Assembly (NCBI GenBank): GCA_016794925.1 | Contig: JAEUIW010000003.1 | Span: 62,001 to 126,000 of the forward strand | Reading direction: 5' to 3' | From: Phycisphaerae bacterium | Lineage (GTDB): Bacteria > Planctomycetota > Phycisphaerae > Phycisphaerales > UBA1924 | DNA: 64,000 nt | Shown here: piece by piece, positions 26,175-33,413 of the stretch | How positions within the stretch are numbered: position 1 is the first letter of the stretch | How the letters are laid out: each line of letters begins with the position of its first letter | Position numbers and translations under genes: made by a program | Notes under the pieces: generated by a model | The model's input: the letters and a program-made list of their open reading frames with translations, nothing else | Databases searched by the model: none | Told to the model about the DNA's origin: nothing

Positions 26175-26201
26175 TTGCCCCCCCCTGTGACCGGGTATAT
26201 T
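26175..26201 (+). promoter_or_regulatory. Candidate promoter with a C8 tract
   Basis: TATATT at 26196-26201 is a good -10 candidate in GC-rich surroundings. The best -35 is TTGCCC at 26175-26180, 15 bases away, whose last three bases start a run of eight C (26178-26185). The start codon of the downstream gene is 55 bases after the -10. Hexamer matches are modest, so this is tentative. Confidence 0.35.
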
Positions 26202-31422: not shown

Positions 31423-31497
31423 TGATAGCGCCCCGGATTGTCTGCCCCTTGTTTACAGTCTGACACAAATGTCTGAGCTTGTCAATCGGCGAGTGAC

Positions 31498-31528
31498 TTG
31501 ACACACACACACACACACACACTATTTT
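31498..31528 (+). promoter_or_regulatory. Promoter with (AC)11 spacer, candidate phase-variable promoter
   Basis: A perfect -35 hexamer TTGACA (31498-31503) and a -10-like TATTTT (31523-31528, four of six matches) are separated by 19 bases, and the whole spacer is AC repeat. The last three bases of the -35 box are themselves repeat, so gain or loss of units leaves the box intact and changes only the spacing in steps of two: 17 with ten units, 19 with eleven. It points to the cysteine-rich peptide gene, whose ATG is 53 bases after the -10. The 16S promoter in this window (TTGACA, 16 bases, TATAGT) shows that the host uses such hexamers. Confidence 0.6.
31501..31522. repeat. (AC)11 dinucleotide microsatellite
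   Basis: Eleven uninterrupted AC units in an otherwise GC-rich, non-repetitive intergenic region between the divergent prepilin-like gene and the cysteine-rich peptide gene. It is the longest dinucleotide repeat noticed in the window. Confidence 0.98.
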
Positions 31529-31580
31529 AGTTGTACGTCAAGGTCTGCGTGCTCGGCATATTCTTCATAAGGAGCTCGCC

Positions 31581-31955
31581 ATGGCCGGTTCAACGCGCAT
31601 CGCAACCATGCTCACGGTGTTGATCACGACGCCGCTCGTTGTGGCGGGAGTTGTCGCGGCATGGCCCGGCTCCTCCGGCCCCACGTGCTGGGAGCAGAAG
31701 TGGCTCAACACCACCGTGGTCTGCGACGGAGCTTGCTCCGCGGGTTACAGCGTCTGTCCCGGGCGCGTGCTGTGCATGGCGGGCAACGTCAACAAGAAGG
31801 CGGACCCTGTTATCACAGGGCCGTTCCCATGCCAATGGTGGACGGGACCGGGCATCACCGGCACGTGCCCGAATTGCGTGGGCGGGTCGTTGACGCAGCC
31901 CGCGACGGAGACCGTCAACATCCCGCATCAGGAATGCGTCGATGCCTGCCCGTAG
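31581..31955 (+). CDS. Cysteine-rich exported small protein
   Basis: A 124-residue protein not recognised as a known family. Residues 1-28 form a signal peptide or anchor (MAGSTRIATMLTVLITTPLVVAGVVAAWPG cut near AWP). The remainder has ten cysteines (for example CDGACSAGYSVC, CPNC and a C-terminal CVDAC) plus several tryptophans, an even number that suits disulfide bonding outside the cytoplasm. The ATG has GGAG six bases upstream. The next gene overlaps its 3' end by 14 bases, so the three genes to 33413 form one operon behind the (AC)n promoter. A MauE-like redox protein in the operon may help form the disulfides. Confidence 0.75.
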   Translation: MAGSTRIATMLTVLITTPLVVAGVVAAWPGSSGPTCWEQKWLNTTVVCDGACSAGYSVCPGRVLCMAGNVNKKADPVITGPFPCQWWTGPGITGTCPNCVGGSLTQPATETVNIPHQECVDACP

Positions 31956-32919
31956 CGCCCATGCGGGCGTGCTTGCGCTGCTCACCTTCGCGTCCGCCGC
32001 GCCGCGTCTCCACGCGCAATCGATCTCCGATGCGCACCGCGCGGCGTTGGACCGCATCGAGGCCATGTACGCGGCGGTCGGTCGCGTCAGCATTCGGGCG
32101 ACGCGCGTGCATGACTCACGAACAGAGGCGGTTTACGAACTCGATGTCGCGGCAGACGGCACCTTCATCGAACTGTACCCGGCAGCGACCGCACCCGAAA
32201 AAAAGAGAAGCGAACACGCGGGTTCGCTGCGGGCGATCATCGCCTTCGACGGTACGACGCTGCGGCAGGGGACGCTCACCGTCTACGACGAATATCCGAT
32301 GGCGGACTACTTGGTACAAGTGAAGTCATGTGCGCAGTGGGCCAAGTGCCCCTGGCCCGTCGTTCCGCTCCTCTGCCGCCGCGCCGCCGCCGCACCGGAT
32401 GCCTCGATCCGTGCCGAGGGCGACGCGAGCGTGCTCGAGAGCCGGGCCGCCGGAATCATGCTCGGGTGGCGTGACGATGGGGCCATGACCCGGTTGCGGC
32501 TGGGTGATCCCGCCGTCTCGTTCCTGGATGTCACCTTCCGCGACTTTGCGCCGGGCGCTTCATCCGTGCCGCCGCTTCCCCGGCTCGCCAGAGTTGAAAC
32601 GTCGCACCGCTCGCGCGACGGAACGATGCTGACCACGACCGAGGAATACGCCATCGAGCACCTGGCCCTGCTCGGGCCCGAGGGCGCCGGCCCGGTGATG
32701 TTCGACGCGAAGGCGCTGAACCTGAATCGTCGCGACCGTGCGACCGGGGATGTCGTCTCGCCCGACGGCACGAAACTCTACAACGAAAAAGAAGTGTCCG
32801 CGGTCCTCGACGCCGCCGAGGGGCGAGGGCGCGAGCGTCCCTGGCTCCTGGCTCTGGTCGTGGCGACCGCGATCGCCGCGGCGTGGGCTGGATGGCGGCG
32901 CCTCAGGCAGGGTGCCTGA
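31942..32919 (+). CDS. Secreted protein with C-terminal membrane anchor, unknown function
   Basis: A 325-residue protein with a signal peptide (GVLALLTFASAAPRLHAQ, cleavage near 26), an extracytoplasmic domain of about 270 residues that starts with a helix (AHRAALDRIEAMYAAVG) followed by strands, and a C-terminal hydrophobic helix (LLALVVATAIAAAWAGW) with a basic end. A cluster VKSCAQWAKCPWPVVPLLCRR carries three cysteines. The family was not recognised; the helix-then-strand opening recalls LolA-like carriers. The ATG overlaps the upstream gene by 14 bases and the stop shares one base with the MauE-like gene start (TGATG), so all three are translationally linked. Confidence 0.75.
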   Translation: MPARSAHAGVLALLTFASAAPRLHAQSISDAHRAALDRIEAMYAAVGRVSIRATRVHDSRTEAVYELDVAADGTFIELYPAATAPEKKRSEHAGSLRAIIAFDGTTLRQGTLTVYDEYPMADYLVQVKSCAQWAKCPWPVVPLLCRRAAAAPDASIRAEGDASVLESRAAGIMLGWRDDGAMTRLRLGDPAVSFLDVTFRDFAPGASSVPPLPRLARVETSHRSRDGTMLTTTEEYAIEHLALLGPEGAGPVMFDAKALNLNRRDRATGDVVSPDGTKLYNEKEVSAVLDAAEGRGRERPWLLALVVATAIAAAWAGWRRLRQGA

Positions 32920-33413
32920 TGAGGTCTGGCCGCCTGCTGCAAACGGTTGCCCTCTTCGGTCGGATTCTCGTCGGCGCCGGGTTCCTCACCGCCGCGGTGA
33001 TGAAGTTGACCGAACCTCACCCGATCCCTCCCGCTCGCGACGGGATTGAAACGTTCGCGAGGCTACTGGAAGTCCAGGGAATCGTGCCCGAACAACTGAC
33101 GCTGCCGGTAGCTTGGTCAGTGCTGTCCAGCGAAGTCGTGCTGGGTTTCGCGCTCCTGTGGCCCGGGGGAAGCAGGTTCGTGCTTTGGTGCGCGGCGTTC
33201 GTGTTGTGTGGATTTTCTGCGTATGCGGTGACGGTTTTCATTCACCAAGGGCAAGTTCAATGCGGGTGCTTCGGCAGAATCCTGCCCGATGGGCTTGCCA
33301 CCGTGCTGGCTCGCAACACAATCCTCACCGCCGCCTTGGGCCCGGCCCTGCTCGTTGGGTCTTCTCGACGCTCACCCCACCGACAGCATACCGGTGAACT
33401 CGCGGAAGCGTGA
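32919..33413 (+). CDS. MauE/DoxX-like redox-associated membrane protein
   Basis: A four-span membrane protein of 164 residues. Segments lie at about 8-28, 58-78, 84-105 and 117-140. After the third is GQVQCGCFG, the CGCFG motif of the MauE/DoxX-like family. MauE is needed in methylotrophs for assembly and disulfide formation of the cysteine-rich methylamine dehydrogenase small subunit, so partnership with the 10-cysteine protein two genes upstream is plausible; this is inference by analogy. The ATG shares one base with the upstream stop. The 3' end overlaps the convergent PfkB kinase gene by 42 bases. Confidence 0.85.
   Translation: MRSGRLLQTVALFGRILVGAGFLTAAVMKLTEPHPIPPARDGIETFARLLEVQGIVPEQLTLPVAWSVLSSEVVLGFALLWPGGSRFVLWCAAFVLCGFSAYAVTVFIHQGQVQCGCFGRILPDGLATVLARNTILTAALGPALLVGSSRRSPHRQHTGELAEA

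Follow-up and report, generated by a model that had tools for sequence, protein, structure and literature searches.

A candidate phase-variable promoter with an AC-repeat spacer, and related tract promoters in a family of Phycisphaerales

Introduction

The porA promoter of Neisseria meningitidis carries a poly-G tract between its -10 and -35 elements, for which 9G, 10G and 11G alleles are described (PMC3639595). A dinucleotide counterpart is found at the hifA/hifB genes of Haemophilus influenzae, where, according to PMC2651432 (which cites van Ham 1993 and Geluk 1998), (TA)9-11 in the divergent promoter region is thought to alter the -10/-35 spacing; in strain F3031, mononucleotide tracts take its place ahead of some hifA copies. 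Orsi et al. 2010 (PMC2831843) treated homopolymeric tracts as a general prokaryotic mechanism, with the tracts lying inside coding genes, and the terms planctomycet, Rhodopirellula and intergenic are absent from the main text of that paper. A first-pass annotation of the DNA considered here had named no known description of promoter switching of this type in planctomycetes, and a literature search for phase variation in planctomycetes or under the stem Phycisphaer-, with most subscription papers outside its scope, likewise found none.

We analysed a 64-kb stretch of planctomycete DNA (the window) in which the entire spacer of a candidate promoter, upstream of a three-gene operon, consists of an AC repeat. 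The tract promoters described below resemble porA in that a G tract occupies the -35/-10 spacer, and in porA the length of the tract sets the expression level of an exported protein. Unlike porA, which is a single gene of a host-adapted pathogen, they belong to an environmental phylum, involve many genes per genome, use G or C on either strand with one AC case, and are known here from sequence alone. The window locus shares with hifA/hifB a dinucleotide repeat and divergent pilin-type genes, and the F3031 tracts parallel the occurrence of both G/C and AC tracts here. It differs from hifA/hifB in that the AC tract forms the spacer of one divergent gene only, and the genes are unrelated. As in the work of Orsi et al., slippage-prone tracts are seen as a regulatory device across prokaryotes. 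The kind of mechanism is already known from porA and hif; what appears to be new is that an environmental phylum uses it at promoters throughout a clade, with repeat units that are interchangeable.

Results

Direct reading of the sequence bears out the anatomy given in the first-pass annotation, namely a TTGACA box, a pure AC repeat and a TATTTT box in immediate succession (Table 1). The bases of this promoter that are independent of the repeat are TTG and TATTTT only. The associated arithmetic of unit loss is also correct, with ten AC units corresponding to a spacing of 17 bp and nine to 15 bp; twelve units correspond to 21 bp. No other repeat of at least seven AC units occurs in the window, where 100 dinucleotide shuffles gave an expectation of 0.00, and the locus is the sole case of at least nine AC units in the 3.66-Mb genome of the organism. 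We found two occurrences of the pattern TTGACAN{15,20}TANNNT in the window, where 0.14 would be expected. Among 400 genomes of the order we found no second AC-spaced promoter, so that the AC tract is without an orthologue for comparison, and on the same ground the idea that AC is itself the meaningful unit was discarded. Repeats of at least nine AC units in relatives (L008, L009, L012, L013, L016 and L027) lie outside such promoters, and another (L011) adjoins a pseudopilin-like gene and is without TTGACA.

Table 1. Features of the window discussed in the text.
Feature	Coordinates	Strand	Remarks
-35 hexamer TTGACA	31498..31503	+	last three bases (ACA) are the start of the repeat
(AC)11 repeat	31501..31522	+	19 bp of repeat form the entire promoter spacer
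-10 hexamer TATTTT	31523..31528	+	4/6 match to TATAAT; fits TAnnnT of the clade's tract promoters
Shine-Dalgarno AAGGAG	31569..31574	+	serves the gene at 31581 (ATG); read from the sequence
Gene 1, exported 124-aa Cys-rich protein	31581..31955	+	first gene of the controlled operon (proposed)
Gene 2, 325-aa protein, signal peptide and C-terminal membrane anchor	31942..32919	+	overlaps gene 1
Gene 3, MauE/DoxX-like membrane protein	32883..33413	+	PF07291, E 9e-22; overlaps gene 2
Pseudopilin-like gene, 245 aa	30685..31422	-	N_methyl PF07963; divergent
Possible promoter for the pseudopilin gene, with fixed spacer	31457..31485	-	TTGACA 31485-31480, 17 bp, CAGACT 31462-31457; consensus match only
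Second, weaker tract-promoter candidate	26175..26201	+	TTGCCC, 15-bp spacer starting in C8 (26178-26185), TATATT
Secreted 376-aa protein, C-terminal membrane segment	26247..27377	+	downstream of the C8 candidate

The three products of the operon had been annotated as an exported Cys-rich protein, an anchored secreted protein and a MauE-like protein, and the signal peptides and membrane anchors were confirmed. The Cys-rich protein had no match in Pfam, NCBIfam or PDB, and its structure prediction was unusable (pLDDT 37). Gene 2 comes after the Cys-rich gene in the paralogous locus of the same genome and in relatives too, and relatives also keep the divergent pseudopilin gene next to the Cys-rich gene. 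In methylamine dehydrogenase systems, MauE is needed for maturing a disulphide-rich subunit; by analogy, it is plausible that the MauE-like protein helps the Cys-rich protein to form its disulphides. A hif-like promoter pair sharing the AC tract was ruled out, because the minus strand has no -35/-10 pair on either side of the repeat that would use it as a spacer. Between the divergent promoters there is an imperfect inverted repeat, CTGACACAAATGTCTGAG, at 31460-31477, which is a possible operator.

Besides one paralogue in its own genome, the Cys-rich protein has relatives in 8 of the 399 other sampled genomes of the order, and all eight are members of the same family; one of these, Phycisphaeraceae bacterium H1_PLA1 (CP054186.1, here G035), has five copies. 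Around the relatives, the divergent pseudopilin gene and gene 2 are kept, and the MauE-like gene often is. Of two tandem paralogues in G035 with similar flanks, one has C14 and a spacing of 17 bp, the other C6 and a spacing of 12 bp, and the homologous spacers in other genomes contain G8 (15 bp), G8AG5 (19 bp), C8 (19 bp), G9 (12 bp) or G10 (18 bp). One homologue (L038) has a CCCATTG unit repeated six times, without a clear TTGACA. Plain spacers of 16-18 bp are found at the homologues L037, L048 and L042; the last of these is in the organism's own genome, where the closest paralogue (L005/L042) combines TTGACA with a plain 16-bp spacer, and the repeat is thus not essential to the operon. In homologous operons it is the position of the repeat that is conserved, and the repeat unit is incidental. 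The proposal that the window promoter is a candidate for phase variation is supported by this finding that other slippage-prone tracts fill the same spot. At a further locus of G035 (L034, at about 1854.9 kb of CP054186.1), a very long C/G run separates TTGACA from TATGTT ahead of a Cys-rich homologue; the length of this run is doubtful and may represent either a real expansion or an assembly artefact.

The AC locus belongs to a set of tract promoters that extends across the clade, which the first-pass annotation had missed. Across 12 chosen genomes, the pattern TTGACAN{0,12}G7N{0,8}TANNNT gave 35 matches and its reversed form gave 2. The G8 version (TTGACA-G(8+)-TAnnnT) was present in 79 of the 400 genomes of the order, namely 62 of 163 family members and 17 of the 237 other genomes; the matches come to about 140 places, and the reversed control gave 2. 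CP054186.1 has 13 strict G-tract hits. Phylum-wide, matches were found in 26 of 324 genomes (36 places, 2 controls), and the architecture is thus concentrated in the organism's own Phycisphaerales family. The C version occurs at 30 places in 21 of the 163 family genomes (control 0). The hif-type shared tract does occur in relatives, at L041, L076 and L182, where the motif TTGACA...TAnnnTGTCAA (controls 0) describes two face-to-face promoters overlapping on one G/C tract. At L069, a TTGACA-16-TATGAT promoter with G7 precedes a tRNA gene; in the organism's own genome, TTGACC-16-TAGACT with C8 before a tRNA-Glu gene (L190, C222:170698-170725) was set aside as a case of chance or of different use. 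Judging from such short-tract matches before tRNA genes, tracts of 7-8 bases include chance cases.

For the organism's own genome we took the stretches around all listed tracts of at least nine G (n = 67). In 7 of the 67, at least five of the six bases of TTGACA are matched within 18 bp upstream, and TAnnnT lies just downstream of all seven, compared with 2 of the 60 others (p = 4e-8). Among the 180 permutations of its letters, TTGACA came first by perfect matches at these tracts. Most of the 67 tracts were dismissed as being without promoter context, many of them coding-like or at contig ends, where the runs are artefact-like, and only about eight fit the promoter pattern. The candidates in this genome number about ten, with spacers of approximately 15, 16, 16, 16, 17, 18, 19, 20, 21 and 21 bp. 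The window itself holds a second, weaker candidate (Table 1), and the family of the protein encoded downstream of it (secreted proteins of about 380 aa whose C-terminus has a membrane segment) stands behind several G-tract promoters in this genome and in relatives.

The spacing of these promoters is constrained. In a set of 140 distinct tract promoters, some of them related to one another as paralogues or orthologues and hence not fully independent, the mean spacer length is 17.06 bp (sd 2.7, range 10-26). The tract directly abuts the TA of the -10 element in 94 of the 140, and for those 94 the lengths of the tract and of the non-tract portion are anti-correlated (r = -0.40) and the variance of the total spacer is 7.3, below that of all 10,000 permutations (mean 12.2). 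In other words, the two portions compensate around 17 bp, as a functional -35/-10 pair requires. For the window promoter itself, the indications of function are its hexamers, its position and the Shine-Dalgarno sequence that follows. Within the distribution, lengths of 16 bp (28 cases) and 19 bp (26) are commoner than 17 bp (13) and 18 bp (15); the two peaks could correspond to on and off states, or they could reflect shared ancestry.

An export-type hydrophobic N-terminus was found for 49 of 53 genes behind tract promoters and for 16 of 49 window genes (p = 1e-10), under a start-choice rule that favours hydrophobic N-termini and was applied equally to both groups. The products behind tract promoters are also rich in Cys (median 2.9% vs 1.0%). 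Few of the families could be recognised, these being pseudopilins, dockerin-type proteins, DUF1573, FGE-sulfatase and MauE/DoxX.

Between-species comparisons of metagenome assemblies, in which homopolymer error is possible in single cases, gave tract-length differences between orthologues: G9 in G360 and G12 in G025 (spacers of 13 and 16 bp, flanks 93-97% identical, no other indel within 150 bp on either side), G9 in G358 and G11 in G102 (19 and 21 bp, flanks conserved), and G9 in both G360 and G339 with G11 in G226 (16 and 18 bp, flanks conserved). These differences, the enriched architecture, the spacing of about 17 bp and the exported cargo all lend further support to the phase-variable reading.

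Discussion

We consider it likely that the promoter at the window locus is switched by changes in its length. According to the mechanism we propose, the promoter is of sigma-70 type and its spacer would gain or lose AC units through slipped-strand mispairing in replication. The distance between the two boxes would change in 2-bp steps through 15, 17, 19 and 21 bp, and transcription of the three-gene operon would switch reversibly with the number of units. Since the ACA of the -35 box comes from the repeat, this box would stay intact whatever the number of units. Ten units (17 bp) should be near-optimal and ON; the eleven units of the assembled allele (19 bp) would probably be weak or OFF, and twelve or nine units would be weak or off. 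Sigma-70 spacing rules come from other bacteria and are assumed for this planctomycete. The sequences show the anatomy, its recurrence, the constraint on spacing, the bias of the cargo and the differences in tract length between orthologues, whereas switching within a population, its effect on expression and any benefit are inferred. Loss of mismatch repair in Neisseria raises mononucleotide switching 100- to 1000-fold (PMC3639595); the genome studied here encodes MutS, which would imply moderate switching rates if mismatch repair works as it does in Neisseria.

On balance, we also favour a broader reading in which this Phycisphaerales family has a promoter phasome, in which a genome has sigma-70 promoters of this kind numbering up to about a dozen, with interchangeable repeat spacers, independent on/off control of exported proteins and mosaic clonal populations. 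A genome-wide set of promoters with G, C or AC spacers and mainly exported cargo would give each cell its own on/off combination.

How far the data could be accommodated without switching deserves consideration. If slippage simply grows runs in the little-constrained spacers of real promoters, the repeats would be neutral, their length drifting until promoter failure purges them. Spacers centred on 17 bp are what purifying selection on promoter function gives, and both the repeat-free homologous promoters (L037, L042 and L048) and the two tract promoters that precede tRNA genes sit comfortably with drift of this kind. We nevertheless regard it as unlikely, since neutral growth would lead one to expect neither a cargo biased towards exported, Cys-rich products (49/53 vs 16/49), nor recurrence in the same gene families with different units, nor the many spacers at 11-14 and 20-22 bp.

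Another suggestion is that the tract binds a protein or adopts a DNA structure, and in this way tunes transcription with no switching of length. Z-DNA can arise from AC repeats and G-quadruplex (G4) structures from G runs, and the abutment of G tracts on the -10 element in 94/140 promoters would suit such an element; however, the same slot is taken by G tracts on either strand, by AC and by other units, so that no single site or structure fits, and the compensation of spacers around 17 bp speaks for the spacing and not for the tract itself. We find this account quite improbable. Scarcely credible, finally, is a chance microsatellite or assembly artefact beside promoter-like sequence, with the operon driven from elsewhere. 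Such a view can draw on the small part of the promoter that is independent of the repeat (TTG and TATTTT) and on the artefact-like long G runs at contig ends in the same assembly, but the count expected in shuffles is zero, homologous operons fill the same spot with other tracts, and AC repeats are no known type of assembly artefact.

The length-switched promoter that we favour has implications for the biology of these organisms. Most documented cases of repeat-driven promoter switching come from host-adapted pathogens, and the explanation given for them is immune evasion. If it operates here, free-living or sludge planctomycetes would need another selective force, such as phage, predation, biofilm or competition; that surface variation might be of benefit against phage or predators, or in biofilms, is a guess on our part. 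Several uncharacterised families of exported, Cys-rich proteins are indicated as the switched cargo. Switching of this type would, if true, provide a testable route to surface heterogeneity in mostly uncultured bacteria, and one that could be checked in existing metagenome reads.
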